64,000 nt of DNA from Prauserella isguenensis (GTDB lineage Bacteria > Actinomycetota > Actinomycetes > Mycobacteriales > Pseudonocardiaceae), in contig NZ_JACHWU010000002.1 in assembly GCF_014191605.1 (NCBI RefSeq), positions 1 to 64,000 on the forward strand, given 5' to 3'. The notes under the pieces were generated by a model. That model was not told the DNA's origin. It made no database searches and saw nothing but the letters and a program-made list of their open reading frames with translations. Made by a program: the position numbers and the translations under genes. Shown in pieces: positions 16,774 through 30,032 of this stretch (position 1 is the stretch's first letter; each line of letters opens with the position of its first letter).

Positions 16774-17774
16774 ACGAGCAGATGCGCGCGGTCGCCCTGG
16801 GTGGGGGTCACGGTCTGCACGCCACGCTGACGGCGTTGCGGCGGCTCACCGACGACGTCACGGCGGTGGTCACGGTCGCCGACGACGGCGGGTCCTCGGG
16901 CAGGCTGCGACGGGAACTGGGCCTGCTGCCGCCCGGCGACCTGCGGAAGGCGCTGGGCGCGCTCGCCGCGGCGGACGACGGCGCGCGGTGGGCCGAGGTG
17001 TTCCAGCACCGGTTCGGCGGCAGCGGCGCGCTGACCGGCCACGCGGTCGGCAACCTGCTCCTGGCGGGTCTGTTCGAGGTGCTCGGCGACCCGGTGGCCG
17101 GGCTCGACGAGGCGGCCCGGCTCCTCGGCGTCTCCGGCCGTGTGCTGCCGATGTCGACCGACCCGCTCGACATCGAGGCCGAGGTGACCGGCCTCGAACC
17201 CGACGGTGCGGTCAGCCGCATCCGCGGGCAGGTCGCCGTCGCCAGCACCCCGGGGCAGGTCCGGCGGATCACGCTGCACAGCGTGGTGCCCGCCGGTGAC
17301 ACGGGCACCGGCGCCGCCGTGAAGCCGCCGCAGGCGTGTCGAGAGGCCGTCGACGCCGTGCTGTCGGCCGACGTGGTGTTCCTCGGCCCCGGCTCGTGGT
17401 TCACGAGCGTGCTGCCGCACCTGCTCGTGCCGGAACTGCACGACGCGCTCGTGAAGACGACGGCGACGAAGATCGTCATACTGAACCTCGTGCCGCAGCC
17501 GGGAGAGACGGCGGGCTTCTCACCCGAACAGCACCTGGACGTACTCTTCCAGCACGCTCCTCGGCTCGGGGTGGACGCCGTGATCGCCGACAGCGATTCG
17601 GTGCCGACGCCGGCGCGGCTGCGCTCGGCGGCCGCGGAGCTGGGCGGGCGTGCACATCTGGCGTCGATCGCCACCCCGGGTGTGGTGGGGCGGCACGACC
17701 CGGATGCGCTGGCTGGTTGTGTGCGAGACGCGCTCGGTGCGACGAGCGCGAAGGAGGGGCTCTCATGGCGATGA
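16770..17774 (+). CDS. yvcK: YvcK/CofD-like gluconeogenesis factor
   Basis: 334 residues, GTG 16770 overlapping the rapZ stop. The N-terminal [37 protein letters not shown] is the UDP-sugar-binding start of the YvcK (GlmR) family, a CofD relative; [20 protein letters not shown] and [18 protein letters not shown] follow. YvcK binds UDP-GlcNAc and links carbon metabolism to cell-wall synthesis in other bacteria. It is not the F420 enzyme CofD itself. The last 10 nt overlap whiA. Confidence 0.9.
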
Positions 17775-18751
17775 CCGCTGCGGTCAAGGACGAACTCAGC
17801 CGGCTCGAGCTGACGAAGGTGAGCCCACGGCGGTCCGAGGTGGCGGCCATGCTGCGGTTCGCCGGTGGCCTGCACATCGTGGCGGGCCGGGTCGTGGTCG
17901 AGGCGGAACTGGACACCGGTTCGGTGGCCCGGCGGCTCCGGAAAGAGGTCCACGAGCTGTACGGCCACCAGGCCGAGGTTCACATGATCACCTCGGGCGG
18001 GCTGCGCAAGGGCAACCGCTACGTGGTGCGCGTGGTCAAGGACGGCGAGGGGCTCGCGCGGCAGACCGGCCTGATCGACCAGCGCGGCCGTCCGGTGCGC
18101 GGACTGCCCGCGCCCGTGGTGTCCGGCGGGATCGCCGACGCCGAGGCGGCCTGGCGCGGCGCGTTCCTGGCGCACGGATCGCTGACCGAACCGGGGCGGT
18201 CGTCGTCACTGGAGGTGACGTGCCCGGGCCCGGAGGCGGCGCTGGCGCTCGTCGGTGCGGCCCGCAGGCTCGGCATCCAGGCCAAGTCGCGCGAGGTGCG
18301 GGGAGCCGACCGGGTCGTGGTCCGCGACGGTGACGCCATCGGCGCGCTGCTCACGCGGCTGGGTGCGCACTCGAGCGTGCTGGCGTGGGAGGAGCGGCGC
18401 ATGCGCCGCGAGGTTCGCGCCACGGCGAACCGGCTCGCCAACTTCGACGACGCCAACCTGCGCCGGTCGGCGCGGGCCGCCGTGGCGGCCGCGGCCAGGG
18501 TCGAACGGGCGATGGAGATCCTGGGCGAGGACGCGCCGGACCACCTGCTGACCGCGGGCAGGCTGCGGGTGTCGAACCGGCAGGCCTCGCTCGAGGAGCT
18601 CGGGCAGCTCTCCGATCCGCCGATGACGAAGGACGCCGTCGCAGGCCGGATCCGCAGGCTGCTCGCCATGGCGGATAAGAAGGCCGCCGATCTGGGTATG
18701 CCCGACACGGAGTCCGCCGTGACCGCGGAGATGCTCGACGAGGAAGTGTGA
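17765..18751 (+). CDS. whiA: sporulation/division regulator WhiA
   Basis: 328 residues, ATG 17765 behind AAGGAGGGG inside the end of yvcK. The N-terminal two thirds are a degenerate LAGLIDADG homing-endonuclease-like domain ([33 protein letters not shown], then [21 protein letters not shown]). The C-terminal helix-turn-helix is [30 protein letters not shown]. WhiA works with WhiB to switch on division genes during actinomycete sporulation. Confidence 0.95.
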
Positions 18752-21886: not shown

Positions 21887-21920
21887 GGCCGCACGGTTCC
21901 CCGCCCGGAACCGTGCGGCC
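21887..21920 (+). terminator. hairpin terminator before the SMC cassette
   Basis: Perfect 14-bp arms (ggccgcacggttcc at 21887-21900 and its complement at 21907-21920) with a 6-nt loop. It separates the membrane protein gene from the SMC cassette, whose -10 box begins 10 nt later. Confidence 0.7.
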
Positions 21921-21929
21921 CCGCTGCCT

Positions 21930-21935
21930 TAACCT
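21930..21935 (+). promoter_or_regulatory. -10 box TAACCT of the SMC cassette (leaderless)
   Basis: TAACCT is 6 nt before the GTG at 21942, so the three-gene mRNA probably starts at its first codon. Together with the hairpin just upstream it marks the cassette as its own transcription unit. Confidence 0.55.
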
Positions 21936-21941
21936 CACACC

Positions 21942-23540
21942 GTGCGAGCTGACGAGACGACCGCCGACCCCGACGAGGGGCTCGCGCGCCGGCTGAAGGC
22001 GCTCGCGTGTACCGCGCCGCTGCACGATCTCGACGCGCGCAAGTCCAAGCTCGACTGGGCGGACGCGACCGTGTACCAGATGGCCGAGATCGGACTCCAC
22101 ACGATCGACCAGGTCACGATCGCCATGGATTTCGACACGGGCGCCGACCACCACCAGGTCGCGCACCGGTTGTTGCCGTTCGTCGCCGCCCAGGCGCCGG
22201 ACCGCACCACCGACGAGCACACGCGGGTGGCGCGCTGGGTGCTCGACAACCTGATCAACGTCGGTACCACCGACCGCGGATTCCGCCGGGTCTACGGCGC
22301 GGTCGACGCCGACGGGAGGTACCGCAGGCGGGCGTTCGACTTCAAGCTCCTCGTCGAGCTCGCCGCGCCGGACGGCGAGGTGTATCTCCGGGCGACCGAC
22401 GAGGCGATCAACGTGCTCGTCGGCGCACTGGACACCGACGTCGAGTCGGCGCACATCGCCGCCGAGGTCAAACTCGAGAACCTGATCACGCGCGGCAGGC
22501 TGGCCGACGCGAAGCTCGCCGCCGAACAGGCGCGGTACCGGACGGTGCAGTACGGGGAGATCCTGCGCGCCAGGCTCGACGCGACGCGGCGTGACGTGCG
22601 GTCGGTCGACTGGGAACGCGAACTGCCCGAGCTGCTCGACTCCGCGCTGACCCACATCGAATCCCGGTTCCGCGCGGAAACGGCCATCCTGAAGAACATC
22701 ACCGCGGCCAGGGACGAGGCGGAGGACCCCGACCACAAGCGCAGGGCCGCCGAACTGGTCGACATCGTGGGCGACTGCATTCGCAGGCACACGCAGCTCC
22801 AGAACCGGTTGCAGGCGGCGGGCGCGGTGTTCCGCGCCGAGCAGGACCGCCAGCAGTTCTCCGGGCCGCCCCAGCGCGCGGCGATCGACGTGTTCGGACA
22901 GCTGCTCACGCCGACCCTGGACCTGCCTCTGTCCGGCGCGCTCGCGCCCGTCGAGGCCTACTTCCGCGCCGGCGCCGGCACCAGCGTGCCGAGCGTGCCG
23001 GCCCTGCCGTCGCTGGTGTCGCTGCTGCTGCGGCCCGCCCCGGAACGCGAACACGTCGTGGGTGAGGTGCCGGACCCCGAGCTGCAGCCCGCCGAGGACA
23101 CCGACGCGTTCACCGACGAACAGTGGCGGCAGGCCGACGCGCTGCTGGACCTGCCGGAGGTGCCGCGGCGGCTGTCGGGTCTGCTCGAGGAGGCCCGCGC
23201 GGCCGATCCGGCCGTCGCCCGGCTCGTCGCCCTGCGCGCCGTATATGCGTACGGCCCGGAGGTCGGCGGTGCGCTGCGGCAGGCCCAGCGCGCGGTGCTG
23301 CTCGCCGTCGACGACGGCACCCGGTTGGACGATCCCGAGATCGGCGGTGCCGACCTGCTGCTGATGTCGGCACTCGTCGACGGCGACGCGGACGACGGCG
23401 GCGAACCGGACGGGCCCGGCGACGACAGTCCCGGGGCCGACGGGGCCGACGGAGTCGACGCCGCGCGGGACGGCACGGACGTGGAGCGCGAGCCCGGGTT
23501 GTTCGACGACAGCGACGCGATCGAGGAGGCTGCTCTGTGA
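21942..23540 (+). CDS. kleisin-like (MukF/MksF/JetA-type) subunit of an SMC cassette
   Basis: 532 residues, no catalytic motif. It is read as the large accessory subunit because of gene order (large accessory, small accessory, giant SMC-like ATPase), helical N-terminal half (LHDLDARKSKLDWADATVYQMAEIGLHTIDQ) and middle helices (AAEVKLENLITRGRLADAKLAAEQARYRTVQYGE, then a 130-residue helical stretch), as in MukF and JetA. The C-terminal 60 residues are strongly acidic (DGDADDGGEPDGPGDDSPGADG). The stop overlaps the next gene (GTGA). I do not recognise the exact family; a profile comparison with MukF, DUF3375 and DUF2397 would decide. Confidence 0.5.
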   Translation: MRADETTADPDEGLARRLKALACTAPLHDLDARKSKLDWADATVYQMAEIGLHTIDQVTIAMDFDTGADHHQVAHRLLPFVAAQAPDRTTDEHTRVARWVLDNLINVGTTDRGFRRVYGAVDADGRYRRRAFDFKLLVELAAPDGEVYLRATDEAINVLVGALDTDVESAHIAAEVKLENLITRGRLADAKLAAEQARYRTVQYGEILRARLDATRRDVRSVDWERELPELLDSALTHIESRFRAETAILKNITAARDEAEDPDHKRRAAELVDIVGDCIRRHTQLQNRLQAAGAVFRAEQDRQQFSGPPQRAAIDVFGQLLTPTLDLPLSGALAPVEAYFRAGAGTSVPSVPALPSLVSLLLRPAPEREHVVGEVPDPELQPAEDTDAFTDEQWRQADALLDLPEVPRRLSGLLEEARAADPAVARLVALRAVYAYGPEVGGALRQAQRAVLLAVDDGTRLDDPEIGGADLLLMSALVDGDADDGGEPDGPGDDSPGADGADGVDAARDGTDVEREPGLFDDSDAIEEAAL

Positions 23541-24328
23541 GCACGGGACATGCGTCGGCCGACGCCGAGGCGGCGGCGCGGCTGCTCGCGTTCGGCATGC
23601 GGCCCAAGCTCGTGCCCGGACGGGACGTGGTGTACGCCGACCTCGTGCGCCGCTACGGCGAGGACAGCGCGTTCAAGCAACTCACCCATTCCGTCGCCGC
23701 CGGTCTGGGACTGATGGTGCTCGAGGTGAACGCGCAGGCCGGGGCCGTGCTGGCCGCCACGGACGAGTCGGTCTTCGAGATCAAGATGGACAGCTACGCG
23801 CGGCAGTCGAAGATCCGAGAACGGCGTGACACCGAGAAGGTGCTGCACGGGCTCATCCACCTGGCCACGGCCGCGCTCGGCTACCCGCGGCCCGACGACC
23901 TCGCCAACGACACCTACATCGGCCGGGTGAGCGTCGAACAGGTGGACGGCGTCGTGCGGGAGGCGTGCCGCATCCTCGACGAGCGTGCCGCCACGAACAC
24001 CGACCCGCTTGCCGACGCGCCCGAACTGGAGCAGGCGTGGCGGGCGTACGCGCGCAGGCCCGCGGCCGCGGCGACCAAGGACGGCAGGCTCGCTCCCGAC
24101 ACCACGCGCGGCATGGTGACCAGGGCGCTACGGTTCCTGGCCGAGCAGGGATTCCTCGTCCCGGTGAGTTCCGAGCAGGGCGGAACGTACCGGACGACGC
24201 CGCGTTACCAGGTGCAGGTGCGCGAGCTGGCGGCCGACGCCGCGTTCGACGAGCTGCTCGCGCTCGGCGTCGTCTCGGTGCCGGGTGAGGGGTCGACGCT
24301 GCGGGCGTCGGCCACCGACACGCTGTAG
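23537..24328 (+). CDS. small winged-helix-like (MukE/MksE/JetB-type) subunit
   Basis: 263 residues; GTG 23537 overlaps the previous stop. It starts ARLLAFGMRPKLVPGRDVVYADLVRRYGEDSAFKQLTHSVAAGLGLMVLEV, a compact helix-strand pattern with VLAATDESVFEIKMDSY that resembles a winged-helix dimer protein. A second possible winged helix is TRGMVTRALRFLAEQGFLVPVSSEQGGTYRTTPRYQVQVREL near 190-230. Small KITE-type proteins of this size sit between kleisin and SMC genes in MukFEB and JetABC operons. It ends 8 bp before the SMC-like gene. Confidence 0.5.
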   Translation: MSTGHASADAEAAARLLAFGMRPKLVPGRDVVYADLVRRYGEDSAFKQLTHSVAAGLGLMVLEVNAQAGAVLAATDESVFEIKMDSYARQSKIRERRDTEKVLHGLIHLATAALGYPRPDDLANDTYIGRVSVEQVDGVVREACRILDERAATNTDPLADAPELEQAWRAYARRPAAAATKDGRLAPDTTRGMVTRALRFLAEQGFLVPVSSEQGGTYRTTPRYQVQVRELAADAAFDELLALGVVSVPGEGSTLRASATDTL

Positions 24329-24336
24329 GGGAGTGG

Positions 24337-27300
24337 ATGTACGAGCTGTCGCGGGTGCGCCTGCACTCGGTCGGTCCCAGCGGTGCGCGGTACCAGGACG
24401 TCGTGCTGGACTTCTCCGGCGTCGGCGATGTCGTGTCCGCGCCGACGCAGGATGCGCTGTTCGGCGCAGGGGTCCACCACGCCGAGAACGGACCGCCGCG
24501 TCGTCCGGCGCCCGCGAGCGTGCTGTTCCTCGAGAACGGCGGCGGGAAGTCGGTGTTGATCAAGCTGATCTTCTCGGTGATGCTGCCGGGTCGCAGGCAG
24601 GTCGTCGGCACGACCAACACACGTGTGCTGGAGAAGTTCGTCGGTGGGAAGGACGTCGCCCACGTGGTGCTCGAGTGGCAGCACGTCGAGACCGGGCAGC
24701 GGCTGATCACCGGCAAGGTCTCCGAATGGCGTGGGCACGTGGCCTCGTCGGATCCCGCGAACCTCGTCGACTCCTGGTACTGCTTCCGCCCCGGCGCGGA
24801 CGTCGGACTCGAGTCGCTGCCGCTGACCGCCGACGGCAAACTGTTGACGATGTCCGGTTTCCACGACCGGATGACGGCGTTGCACGGTGACGTGCCGGAA
24901 CTGCAGCTGTTCTGGACCCGCAGGCACCACGAGTGGACCGAGCGCCTCGACGAGCTCGGCCTGGACACGGAGCTGTTCCGCTACCAGCGCGCCATGAACG
25001 CGGGCGAGGGCGAGGCGGCGGACGCGTTCGCGTTCAACACCGACGAGGCCTTCGTGGAGTTCCTGCTTCGCGCCGTGATCACCGAGGACGAGCCGAGGGA
25101 TCTCGCCGACGTCCTGGCCACCTACGCCGACAATCTCGCTCAGCGCGGCGAGTTGATGACCGAACGCGACTTCGTGGCCGGTGCGCTGGACGCGCTCACC
25201 CCACTGATCGACGAGGAGAAGCTCGCGGCGGCCGCGCGCAAGCTCGCCGACGCCGCGCGCGCCGAGCTCGAGACCCTCGCCGGCGAGGTGGCGGGCCGTA
25301 ACGCCGCGGAGTCCGAACGGCTCGAGACGCTGACCGCGCACGTGCAGGAGGTCGCCGACGCGGAGCGTCTCGCCGAGGGCGATCACCGGCGTAAGCAGGC
25401 CGTGCTCACCGAACTGCGCAGGCAGGTGGCCGCGATGCTGCGGGACCAGGCGCAGGCCGAGTCTGAACGCATCGACGCCGAGCTGGCGGAGGCGAAGACC
25501 CTCGCCGAGGCGTGGCGGGAGACCGGGACCGTCCTGACCCAGCTGGGCGCCACCCGGAAGGCCGCCGACATCCGCGAACTCGTCGGCAGCCGGGAGGAGA
25601 AGGCGCGGCCCGCGCTGGAGGCGAAGAACGCCGCCGCGACGGCGCTGGCGCGCGGCCTGCTCGGGCTGGCGCAGGAGGCGCAGGAGCAGGCCGACGAGGC
25701 GGACCGGCAGGCGACGGAGCTGCAGGCCGAGGCGGAGGAGGCGCAGCGGGAACGCGACGAGGCGACGTCGGCCGCTGCGAACCGTCGTGCCGAGGCCGAC
25801 GGGCTCGACGCACGACTGGAGGAGGTGCGGGCGGAGATCACCCGCACCACCGCCGACGGACTGCTGAGCCACGGGGCGGACGTGGCCGAGGCGGCACGGA
25901 CGGCGGTCGCCGAGGGGGAGGAAGCGACCGCCGAACTCTCCCGCAGAGAGGCCGAGCTGGAGCGGGTCGCCGAGGAACTCGGAGCCGCCCAGACCGCGGC
26001 CCACGAGGGTCAGCGCGAGGCGGCAGGCGCACGGGACCGCGCCCAGCGCGCGGCCGAGGAGCTCACGCGTGCACACCGCCGTACCGACGCGCTCGCCGCC
26101 GAGCCGCGGCTGGCCGAACTGCTCGGCACCGACACGGTCACGTTGGAGACCGATACGCCCGCGGTGCTGGAGCGGCTCGCCGAGGCTCGTGGGGAGGCGG
26201 AACGCGAGCAGACGACCCTGCGGATGGAGGAGTCGCGGGACGAACGTGCGCTGGGGGCGCTCGGTTCGGGTGGTCTGCTGCCCGCGCCCGAGGAGCTGCA
26301 GGCCGCGCTGGAGGTGCTCGAGCAGGCGGGCATCACGGCGTGGTCCGGCTGGCGTTACCTGTCGACGTTGGATCCGTCGACGCGGGCCGATGCCGTGCGA
26401 CGGGCGCCGCAGCTCGTGTCGGGGGTGCTGGTGAACGACCCGGCGCAGCTCGACAGGGCCGAGGAGGTCCTCACCGAGCACCGACTGCTGCCCGGTGCGG
26501 CGATCGCCGTCGGCACCACCGCGGCGCTGGCCGACCGTGACCTGGGTGAGGCGCCCGGCGTGGCGTTCCTCGTGCCGCCGAACCCGGCGATGTACGACGA
26601 GGACGCCGCCGACGCCGAACGCGAGGCCATCAGCAGGCGCCAGCACGACCGGCAGCGCAGGCTCGCCGAGCTGGAGGAGTCGATCGGCCACGACGCCGCC
26701 CTGACGTGGAAGCTCACGGCCTGGCGCGAGGACTACCCGCCCGGCAGCATCGCCGTCCTGGCCGAGCGTGCCCAGGAGGCCGAGACCGCGCGGGAGGCGG
26801 CCGAACAGCACGCCGACGAGGCGGAACGCACCGCTGCGCGGCTGACCGAGAAGCGGGACGGGCTGCGGGAGCGGATTCCGGCGCTGCGGGCGGAGGCCCG
26901 CCGGGCCGAGGACGTCGCCCGCACGCTCGAGGACCTCGCGGGCAGGGCCGGCCGGATGCCGCAGTGGACCGAGGAGGCGCAGCGCGCCAGGGAGACGGCC
27001 GCGCTGGCGGAGCAGCGGTCGGAGGACGCCGCGGCGCGGGCAGCCCGGCTGCGGGACCAGGTGGCCGAACACCGGCGCACGGCCGACGGCCGCCGGCGCA
27101 CCGCGACCACGGCGCGCGGCGAGCTGGCCGAGGTGCCCGGCGGCGGGGCGGTGTCGGCCGACGAGCCGGTACCCGACGAACCGGTGGACGCGCTGCGGCG
27201 GGCGTTCACGTCGGCGTCCGAGGCCTACGCGAGGGTCGAGGTGGGCGGTGACCTGCGGGCCGAGCTGGAGCAGGCCGAGGCGGCCGAGTCGGCGGCCAGG

Positions 27301-28779
27301 GCGGCGCTGGAGAACCTCGACGAGGACGTGCGGCTGCGCGCGGCCGAACTGCTCGACACCCCCGACGGCTCCGACTCGTCGGCCCGTGCGGCCGCCCAGG
27401 CGCGAGCGGTGCGGGCCGTGGAGACCCTCGAGGCGGAACGCACCGAGGTGATCGGCCGGCTCGCCACCCGCACGGCCGAGCTCGAACAACTGCCGTCGCC
27501 GTCGGGGCCGGTGGACAGCACGGAACGGCCGCGCGACGTCGACCACGGCCGGGAACTCATCGAGGAGGCCGCCGACCAGGTGTCGGCCGCCGCCCGGGAA
27601 TGGGAGGAGCTGCGGGAGCGGTACGCGGCCGCACAGGCCTCCCTCGACACGGCGAAGCAGAGCGCCTCGGGGTTCCGGTTGCTGGCCGAGACGCTGGCGG
27701 CACATGTGCCGTCCGGCGAACCGCCGCGGACGTTCGACGGTGACGTGGAGGAGGCCCAGGCCAGAGCCACCGAGCTGACCGGACGGCTCACGTCTGCGCA
27801 GCAGCAGGTCGACGAGGCGGCGACACGTGTGCGCGCCGCCGCCGACACACTGGCCCAGTACGCCACCGAGAAGCGGTTCGAGCAGCTGGACACGCCGGTG
27901 CGGCAGCAGGTCGTGTCGGTCCGCCGCGACCGCCTCCCCGAACACGCCGAGGAGTGGGCCGACGCGCTGCGGCCGCGGCTGCGGACGCTCACCGACGACC
28001 TGGCGCAGATCGACCGCCACCGCTCCGGCATCGTCACCCGACTGCAGAGCATGGTCGAAGGCGCGATCCGCACGCTGCGCTCGGCACAGCGCGTCTCTCG
28101 GCTGCCGGACGGCCTCGGCGACTGGTCCGGGCAGGATTTCCTCCGCATCCGTTTCACCGAGCTCGACGACACCGACCTGGCCACGGCCCTCGGCGAGGTC
28201 GTCGACGAGGCAGCTGTCGGCAAGACCGCCGACGGCCGGGACGTGAAACGCGACGGGTTGTCGCTGCTGCTGCGCGGGGTGCGTGCCGCCGTGCCGAAGG
28301 GCTTCCGGGTGGACATGCTCAAACCGGACTCCGTGCTCCGCACCGAGCGTCAGCGCGTGTCGGAGATCCGGGACGTGTTCTCCGGCGGTCAGCAGCTCAC
28401 CGCGGCGATCATCCTGTACTGCACCCTCGCGGCACTGCGGGCCAACAACCGCGGCCGGATGCGGAACCCACATTCGGGCGTGCTGTTCCTCGACAATCCG
28501 ATCGGCCGCGCCTCGGCCGGGTATCTGCTCGAACTGCAGCGTGCCGTCGCGAGTGCCCTGGGTGTGCAGCTGGTCTACACGACCGGGCTGTTCGATGCGG
28601 GCGCACTGGCGGAGTTCCCGCTGATCGTGCGGCTCCGCAACGACGCCGACCTGCGTGCGGGTCGCAAGTATCTGTCGGTCGACGCCACGATGAAGAAACA
28701 ACTCGACGAGCTCCCCGAACCGGACGGCACGGCCCGGCTGACGTCCACCCGCGTGTACACGAAATCGGCTGCGGGCTGA
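24337..28779 (+). CDS. SMC/MukB/JetC-like ATPase, 1480 residues
   Basis: A giant SMC-type ATPase. The N-terminal head has a P-loop ENGGGKS at 66-72 (Leu at the usual first Gly position), and RVLEKFVGGKDVAHVVLEW. Two very long Ala/Glu/Arg coiled-coil arms (about 285-640 and 770-1270) flank a non-coiled hinge-like region at about 645-765 (AGITAWSGWRYLSTLD, PQLVSGVLVND, PGVAFLVPPNPAMYDED). The C-terminal head has the ABC signature FSGGQQLTAAI (Ser1349) and Walker B VLFLDNPIG, where Asp1386 is followed by Asn, not the catalytic Glu. It would bind DNA as a dimer with the two preceding proteins. No JetD/MksG nuclease follows. ATG 24337 lies behind GGGGAG. Confidence 0.8.
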   Translation: MYELSRVRLHSVGPSGARYQDVVLDFSGVGDVVSAPTQDALFGAGVHHAENGPPRRPAPASVLFLENGGGKSVLIKLIFSVMLPGRRQVVGTTNTRVLEKFVGGKDVAHVVLEWQHVETGQRLITGKVSEWRGHVASSDPANLVDSWYCFRPGADVGLESLPLTADGKLLTMSGFHDRMTALHGDVPELQLFWTRRHHEWTERLDELGLDTELFRYQRAMNAGEGEAADAFAFNTDEAFVEFLLRAVITEDEPRDLADVLATYADNLAQRGELMTERDFVAGALDALTPLIDEEKLAAAARKLADAARAELETLAGEVAGRNAAESERLETLTAHVQEVADAERLAEGDHRRKQAVLTELRRQVAAMLRDQAQAESERIDAELAEAKTLAEAWRETGTVLTQLGATRKAADIRELVGSREEKARPALEAKNAAATALARGLLGLAQEAQEQADEADRQATELQAEAEEAQRERDEATSAAANRRAEADGLDARLEEVRAEITRTTADGLLSHGADVAEAARTAVAEGEEATAELSRREAELERVAEELGAAQTAAHEGQREAAGARDRAQRAAEELTRAHRRTDALAAEPRLAELLGTDTVTLETDTPAVLERLAEARGEAEREQTTLRMEESRDERALGALGSGGLLPAPEELQAALEVLEQAGITAWSGWRYLSTLDPSTRADAVRRAPQLVSGVLVNDPAQLDRAEEVLTEHRLLPGAAIAVGTTAALADRDLGEAPGVAFLVPPNPAMYDEDAADAEREAISRRQHDRQRRLAELEESIGHDAALTWKLTAWREDYPPGSIAVLAERAQEAETAREAAEQHADEAERTAARLTEKRDGLRERIPALRAEARRAEDVARTLEDLAGRAGRMPQWTEEAQRARETAALAEQRSEDAAARAARLRDQVAEHRRTADGRRRTATTARGELAEVPGGGAVSADEPVPDEPVDALRRAFTSASEAYARVEVGGDLRAELEQAEAAESAARAALENLDEDVRLRAAELLDTPDGSDSSARAAAQARAVRAVETLEAERTEVIGRLATRTAELEQLPSPSGPVDSTERPRDVDHGRELIEEAADQVSAAAREWEELRERYAAAQASLDTAKQSASGFRLLAETLAAHVPSGEPPRTFDGDVEEAQARATELTGRLTSAQQQVDEAATRVRAAADTLAQYATEKRFEQLDTPVRQQVVSVRRDRLPEHAEEWADALRPRLRTLTDDLAQIDRHRSGIVTRLQSMVEGAIRTLRSAQRVSRLPDGLGDWSGQDFLRIRFTELDDTDLATALGEVVDEAAVGKTADGRDVKRDGLSLLLRGVRAAVPKGFRVDMLKPDSVLRTERQRVSEIRDVFSGGQQLTAAIILYCTLAALRANNRGRMRNPHSGVLFLDNPIGRASAGYLLELQRAVASALGVQLVYTTGLFDAGALAEFPLIVRLRNDADLRAGRKYLSVDATMKKQLDELPEPDGTARLTSTRVYTKSAAG

Positions 28780-28951
28780 CGCAGTGCCCCGCGAGACGCC
28801 GGTTTCGGTCGGGGTCGCCGCTGGACACGGTGTGTGACCCCCGGCGGACCTGACCGGGCGATGTGACGTGGGCGATCGTGAACGATTTCTGCAAGGTTCA
28901 AGGTGCGCCACGTCTCGTGCGGGGTATCCGGGTGGGGACTGGTCGCCGCGC

Positions 28952-28957
28952 TAGGGT
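28952..28957 (+). promoter_or_regulatory. -10 box TAGGGT of the gap operon
   Basis: The 248-bp gap 28780-29027 holds no gene. TAGGGT would give a transcript start near 28964 and a leader of about 64 nt before the gap GTG, which has a real ribosome binding site (AGGAGAG). No clear -35 was found. Confidence 0.45.
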
Positions 28958-28991
28958 GTGGGCGTCCCAACGATGTGCAAGCCGGCCGTAG

Positions 28992-30032
<1,041 letters not shown>

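Follow-up and report, generated by a model that had tools for sequence, protein, structure and literature searches.

A type III Wadjet core without its nuclease at a conserved whiA-gap site in Prauserella, Amycolatopsis and relatives: probably a second chromosomal loop extruder

The 64,000-nucleotide stretch of Prauserella isguenensis DNA analyzed here (assembly GCF_014191605.1, contig NZ_JACHWU010000002.1, positions 1 to 64,000; hereafter the window) carries a three-gene cassette, jetABC, that encodes an ATPase of the structural maintenance of chromosomes (SMC) type with two accessory proteins, and that lacks jetD, the nuclease gene of Wadjet systems. A preliminary description, made from the sequence alone, had read the cassette as a leaderless Wadjet- or Muk-like SMC unit without a nuclease, set in core metabolism. 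The coordinates of the open reading frames (ORFs) confirm its layout, with products of 532, 263 and 1480 residues, a GTGA overlap between the first two genes, 8 bp between jetB and jetC, and gap as the next gene. Dozens of genomes have homologous three-gene units in the loci that were fetched, and the unit is therefore more than a product of chance. The genes and the head motifs of JetC are as follows:

21942..23540, + strand: jetA, type III Wadjet JetA, presumed kleisin, MukF-like; 532 aa, GTG start; PADLOC PDLC00567 (JetA3), E = 5.4e-209
23537..24328, + strand: jetB, probable KITE protein, MukE/JetB-like; 263 aa, GTG start inside the GTGA overlap with jetA; PADLOC JetB3, E = 0.009
24337..28779, + strand: jetC, type III Wadjet SMC ATPase; 1480 aa, ATG start; PADLOC PDLC00588 (JetC3), E = 0
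24532..24555, + strand: Walker A, ENGGGKSV, JetC residues 66-73; N67, G68, G69, G70, K71 and S72 invariant in 25 of 25 aligned JetC rows, window included
28378..28395, + strand: ABC signature, FSGGQQ, JetC residues 1348-1353; F1348, S1349, G1350 and G1351 invariant in 25 of 25 rows
28477..28500, + strand: Walker B, GVLFLDNP, JetC residues 1381-1388; LDNP in 24 of 25 rows, the exception, L069, being out of frame there

Wadjet probably measures circular DNA by extruding it in loops, with cutting performed by JetD. The JetC3 profile of PADLOC spans residues 1-1478 of the jetC product (1936.9 bits), and this match and that to JetA3 identify the cassette, as judged by homology, as the JetABC core of a type III Wadjet system; the JetB3 match is marginal. 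The motifs at both ends of JetC, separated by long Ala/Glu/Arg-rich arms, bear out the SMC-type ATPase first described. In most SMC proteins Walker B has a catalytic Glu where LDNP has Asn, and given this substitution type III JetC may hydrolyse ATP by a mechanism other than the usual one; LDNP also occurs in JetD-bearing type III rows and is thus not specific to the window's lineage. Pfam gave nothing convincing for JetA, JetB or JetC, and for JetA neither Pfam nor NCBIfam listed anything up to E = 1. The families TIGR02677-02680, which the preliminary description had named for comparison, did not match any of the three proteins up to E = 1 (NCBIfam), and it is PADLOC that places the cassette in type III. 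JetC matches NCBIfam SMC_prok_B weakly, best in residues 972-1240, and sequence comparison with solved structures returned nothing convincing for the three proteins, the best JetC match being an SMC4 coiled coil (E = 0.0009).

The AlphaFold model of JetB (predicted local distance difference test, pLDDT, 72) has MukE or Wadjet JetB chains, identified from entry and length, as its 11 best matches in the PDB, with probabilities up to 0.97 and a best E of 0.018, none being at or below 0.001. This supports the KITE fold anticipated for JetB. The low-confidence JetA model (pLDDT 56) shows an order of secondary structure that would fit a helical bundle flanked by winged helices at the N- and C-termini, and has no significant match; chains of MukE-MukF entries, presumed to be MukF, appear at ranks 11, 26 and 40, none of them significant.

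The cassette occupies a fixed chromosomal site. In a family sample of 150 genomes, 47 had a JetA3 match, and 49 stretches were fetched. Taking whiA or gap within the stretch as the mark of the site, the cassette lies at the whiA-gap site in 33 genomes (32 stretches and the window) from ten genus groups, and 16 loci lie elsewhere (L047 was judged by its named copy, L103, and the fragment L089 was dropped). The order whiA-jetABC-gap-pgk-tpi is common to Prauserella, Amycolatopsis, Haloechinothrix and relatives; the closest relative of the window among the loci, L060, taken as P. aidingensis (L102), has a JetC 97% identical. Within the Amycolatopsis genus group (g15, named via G014, taken as A. 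regifaucium), JetA scores at least 686 bits in 80 of 80 genomes, and 77 of these have gap on the same strand, 6.2-15.0 kb downstream; gap is on another contig in two of the remaining three and gave no match in the third. JetA is likewise found in all seven genomes of the window's own genus, Prauserella. The position beside gap, which the preliminary description had noted for the window, recurs across genera of Pseudonocardiaceae. More widely, 48 of 397 genomes in an order-wide sample match JetA, 13 from other families scoring 94-654 bits; five plasmid records contain partial JetA matches (the best covering 77% of the query at 55% identity, in Rhodococcus), and phage records contain none. Of 18 stretches without the cassette, 11 have whiA and gap less than 1.3 kb apart, among them L192 with 52 bp and L188 with 143 bp; in the other seven the distance is 3.4-8.8 kb. 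The profile PDLC00567 scores the site copies highest (up to 718.7 bits; off-site JetD-bearing relatives reach 672 bits), and was perhaps built largely from an apparently core, non-defence form.

We searched for JetD in the window's genome with PF09983 and with a profile of 12 JetD3 proteins, other nuclease families not being searched, and found none. A tblastn search of the window with JetD (E up to 10) gave chance-level matches only, all outside the interval between jetC and gap, whose 248 bp leave no room for a jetD gene. Among 14 control genomes, PF09983 matched in Corynebacterium glutamicum alone. For the Amycolatopsis group we used a 19-row JetD profile and compared JetA and JetD positions by eye: JetD adjoins one of the 80 site copies (G189, taken as A. 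rifamycinica) versus all 16 of the extra, patchily distributed JetA copies in the same genomes (Fisher p = 2.6e-17, a value that ignores relatedness; the extra copies exclude a 46-residue JetA match in G201, which scored 21.9 bits). Any JetD3 match at all is found in 21 of the 80 genomes, and of these 24 matches, 16 accompany an extra JetABC copy and one is at the site. In the family sample JetD accompanies 1 of the 33 loci at the site and 12 of the 16 elsewhere. For 80 named loci, which overlap with these genomes, 64 loci of the site type (JetC at least 61% identical to that of the window) could be assessed and one has JetD; of 14 assessable others eight have it, L145 and L173 being cut. In the window's genus, L080 (G065) and L081 (G146) have an extra, distant type III JetABCD elsewhere in the genome, the jetC frame of L081 being broken in the draft.

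Across 13 chosen pairs the median ratio of nonsynonymous to synonymous substitution rates (dN/dS) is 0.085 for jetA, 0.040 for jetB and 0.095 for jetC. The neighbouring genes give 0.093 for gap (13 pairs), 0.101 for pgk (10), 0.115 for uvrC (8), 0.067 for yvcK (8), 0.037 for rapZ (8) and 0.017 for whiA (10). In the pairs measured, purifying selection thus acts on jetABC much as on the genes around it. The frames are full-length in the site loci read, except in the own-genus draft L082/L159, where jetA and jetC are broken, and in L079, which is cut by a contig end. Alignment columns invariant in chosen JetD-bearing relatives number 162 in JetA (11 sequences), 76 in JetB (10) and 287 in JetC (9); in 22 chosen JetD-less sequences, only 4, 0 and 11 of these, respectively, are kept at less than 80%. 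The motor of the JetD-less copies shows no sign of decay, and the chosen JetA, JetB and JetC rows have no cluster of relaxed positions that would point to a former JetD interface.

The cassette is flanked on its 5' side by whiA and a family 2 glycosyltransferase gene and is followed by gap, pgk and tpi. Its flanking features are:

17771..18751, + strand: whiA, 5' anchor of the conserved site; Pfam WhiA_N, LAGLIDADG_WhiA and HTH_WhiA on ORF 17336-18751, 17771 being the chosen start of an open 326-aa frame
21930..21935, + strand: TAACCT, -10-like box of a putative leaderless promoter, 6 nt before the jetA start
28780..29027, no strand: jetC-gap intergenic stretch, 248 bp; the site of JetD in two relatives, with no remnant in the window
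29028..30032, + strand: gap (GAPDH), 3' anchor of the conserved site; Pfam Gp_dh_N and Gp_dh_C

A TANNNT box lies 6 or 8 nt 5' of the jetA start in 65 of 66 loci (63 if the called start alone is counted; one contig-edge locus was left out). As a control inside jetA, such a box precedes 7 of 77 sampled out-of-frame GTGs and none of 175 in-frame GTG codons. These counts support a conserved leaderless promoter ahead of jetA, in line with the leaderless unit first described. Just 5' of the promoter box, at 21887-21920, lies a perfect 14-bp inverted repeat with a 6-nt loop (folding z of -5.0 for the stretch), perhaps the terminator of the upstream gene; judged by eye, a similar hairpin is present in L100 and L101 and absent from the nearest relative, L102 (P. 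aidingensis). An antisense ORF of 1568 aa (24205-28911, - strand) spans jetC and is longer than it; it is probably an artefact of GC-rich codon usage that could mislead a naive gene caller. Many relatives, though not the window, carry an AlkZ-like DNA glycosylase gene between jetC and gap (cluster c3, 20 members, e.g. L046:15453-16628; PF06224 matched the one member scanned).

That JetABC was kept over the long term without JetD in this group of soil actinomycetes, as a fixed part of the chromosome, suggests conversion to a housekeeping machine. We propose that the cassette is probably a Wadjet core turned second, chromosomal SMC loop extruder, the type III counterpart of MukBEF and MksBEF; the housekeeping role raised in the preliminary description is, in our judgment, the best reading. 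The window's genome has a separate Smc (C4:73830-77393, 979.7 bits) and a ScpA (C8:109220-109885), so that JetABC would be a second system. The motor has been selected for and the cutter has not, and without JetD the likeliest use of the motor is chromosomal. Type III JetABC would have settled between whiA and gap in an ancestor of the Amycolatopsis-Prauserella-Haloechinothrix group and would then have been kept without JetD in nearly all descendants sampled. The complex would load on chromosomal DNA and extrude loops by ATP hydrolysis; without a nuclease it would release the DNA or stay on it rather than cut. Alongside Smc-ScpAB it would contribute to chromosome folding or segregation, the role that MksBEF has in Pseudomonas aeruginosa and MukBEF has in enterobacteria. 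On this proposal, a restriction machine would have become a housekeeping one when JetD was lost. A precedent has been put forward in a review (PMC10586767), in a passage where P. aeruginosa MksBEF, which acts on the chromosome, is said to be likely derived from JetABCD by loss of JetD, and where the same Wadjet origin is speculated for MukBEF.

Several points weigh against a chromosomal role. Action on the chromosome is argued by analogy, from conservation and the absence of JetD, and in C. glutamicum MksB is described as acting in plasmid control (PMC10123090). JetD-less copies also occur off the site (in Sciscionella, some Pseudonocardia and a Cellulomonas), at 4 of the 16 off-site loci in the family sample and at 6 of the 14 assessable named loci, so that loss of JetD alone is no mark of a housekeeping role. 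The cassette is absent from the whiA-gap site in the related genus groups g24 and g42, in five of five loci (L178-L182; G108, G060, G125, G042, G075), and is dispensable in these hosts; a JetD_C gene belonging to a different system occurs in five of the six g24 genomes sampled. The kleisin fold anticipated for JetA could not be confirmed on so weak a model, and the label follows from JetA3 homology. Finally, JetD is present at the site in two lineages: in L065 (G017) an intact JetD gene of 359 aa separates jetC from gap, and in A. rifamycinica (L142) an intact 348-aa JetD (L142:16740-17786) overlaps the jetC end. Restriction may therefore still be a recoverable function of the locus.

The jetA-jetC stretch of A. 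rifamycinica is 85-97% identical, in 400-nt steps, to that of five Amycolatopsis relatives up to the last jetC codons, where its tail is unlike that of the ten relatives compared. Its JetD looks to have been acquired by recombination at the jetC end, re-arming the cassette. The GC content at third codon positions is 0.81 for this JetD (measured on a shortened frame) versus 0.94 for its jetC, and 0.76 versus 0.83 in L065. The intact 348-aa frame rules out a truncated JetD in A. rifamycinica; a JetC-JetD fusion suspected in L069 (a 1828-aa frame) was likewise discarded, as the alignment shows its C-terminal head to be out of frame. A host tree built from up to six neighbour proteins (UvrC, RapZ, YvcK, WhiA, Gap and Pgk; 41 loci, two of them repeat genomes; Shimodaira-Hasegawa-like approximate likelihood ratio support) gathers the cassette hosts in one clade (96), whose first branch (100) unites G017 with G054, which has an empty site and JetABCD elsewhere. 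The tree implies that the whole cassette was lost later in g24 and g42. In the JetC tree the site clade has a support of 93, and in an approximately unbiased (AU) test a single clade of the 31 JetD-less rows is not rejected (p = 0.29). Through most of the history of the group the site has probably had no JetD, whether by a single loss following the first split or because JetD never became fixed there. A single clean loss is permitted by the AU test, but the JetDs of L065 and L142, which form one group with that of L077 (96/97), are far more diverged from each other than are their JetCs, which counts against it; at least one re-acquisition is likelier. One JetC tree places L077 itself, together with Sciscionella, close to the site clade (91).

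Three other explanations have to be weighed against a chromosomal extruder. JetABC might restrict plasmids or phages without cutting, by recognizing and compacting small circular DNA and so silencing or excluding it, like Smc5/6 on viral episomes, for which compaction of circular DNA has been proposed (PMC10586767). The motor differs little from that of relatives with a nuclease, and the two site copies with JetD, one apparently re-armed, suggest that foreign circular DNA is still a target; yet presence in 80 of 80 genomes with fixed synteny is unlike the patchy distribution of defence genes, and all 16 extra copies in the same genomes retain JetD. We regard this explanation as possible but improbable. 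A complete restriction system with its nuclease encoded elsewhere, as the preliminary description had allowed, is far less probable. Two hosts of the site cassette (G127 and G138) do have strong PF09983 matches elsewhere, but the window's genome has none by either profile, for which the idea is rejected as far as the two profiles reach, and across the Amycolatopsis group JetD3 is confined to about a quarter of the genomes and lies mostly beside the extra copies, as detailed above.

Least probable, by a little, is an ordinary degraded Wadjet that lost JetD recently and whose remainder is drifting. The preliminary description had held that a jetD gene at the same locus in close relatives would point this way, and such genes were found in the two lineages named above; the broken jetA and jetC frames of the draft L082/L159 would also fit. 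However, 79 of the 80 site copies in the Amycolatopsis group are without JetD, dN/dS of jetABC is low in the pairs measured, the site-locus frames are full-length save in that draft and in the cut L079, and JetA is present in every genome of both genus groups.

We go further, as an evenly balanced proposition, and suggest that Amycolatopsis and relatives represent an independent second conversion of a plasmid-restriction SMC system, here type III Wadjet, to a core chromosomal loop extruder beside Smc-ScpAB. The nuclease would then be a detachable and re-acquirable module, as in A. rifamycinica, and a single lineage would display one motor, at one locus, both as a housekeeping and as an armed machine. 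The origin of MksBEF, and perhaps MukBEF, from Wadjet by nuclease loss is already a published proposal (PMC10586767); among the papers listed (in one listing the first 12 of 286), as judged by titles and the openings of abstracts, none deals with a nuclease-free type III Wadjet in Pseudonocardiaceae, and a prior mention may exist elsewhere in the literature. Close relatives apparently show both states at one locus, and some of the same cells hold nuclease-bearing paralogues that can serve as controls, so that the transition from defence to housekeeping can be tested directly. Amycolatopsis is an important antibiotic-producing genus, and defence annotation with JetA and JetC profiles will count a core gene set of this genus as part of an anti-plasmid system.

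Compared with known systems, the cassette resembles type III Wadjet (JetABCD) in its A-B-C gene order, near-full-length JetA3 and JetC3 matches and ATPase motifs including LDNP, but differs in having no JetD3, here and beside 79 of 80 Amycolatopsis-group site copies, and in its fixed chromosomal site in every genome of two genus groups, where type III Wadjet is patchy. With MukBEF and MksBEF it shares the gene order, presumed kleisin, KITE and SMC, without a nuclease, and a KITE-like JetB; unlike them, it has no Pfam or NCBIfam Muk match, is of type III origin and coexists with Smc and ScpA, whereas MukBEF is described as having apparently replaced Smc-ScpAB (PMC10586767). Like C. glutamicum MksBEFG, a type I Wadjet, it is a second actinomycete SMC complex beside Smc, but MksBEFG retains the nuclease MksG and is reported to act on plasmids (PMC10123090). 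JetC has the SMC ATPase architecture of Smc-ScpAB, but is separate from the genome's own Smc locus and matches the model for that Smc only weakly.

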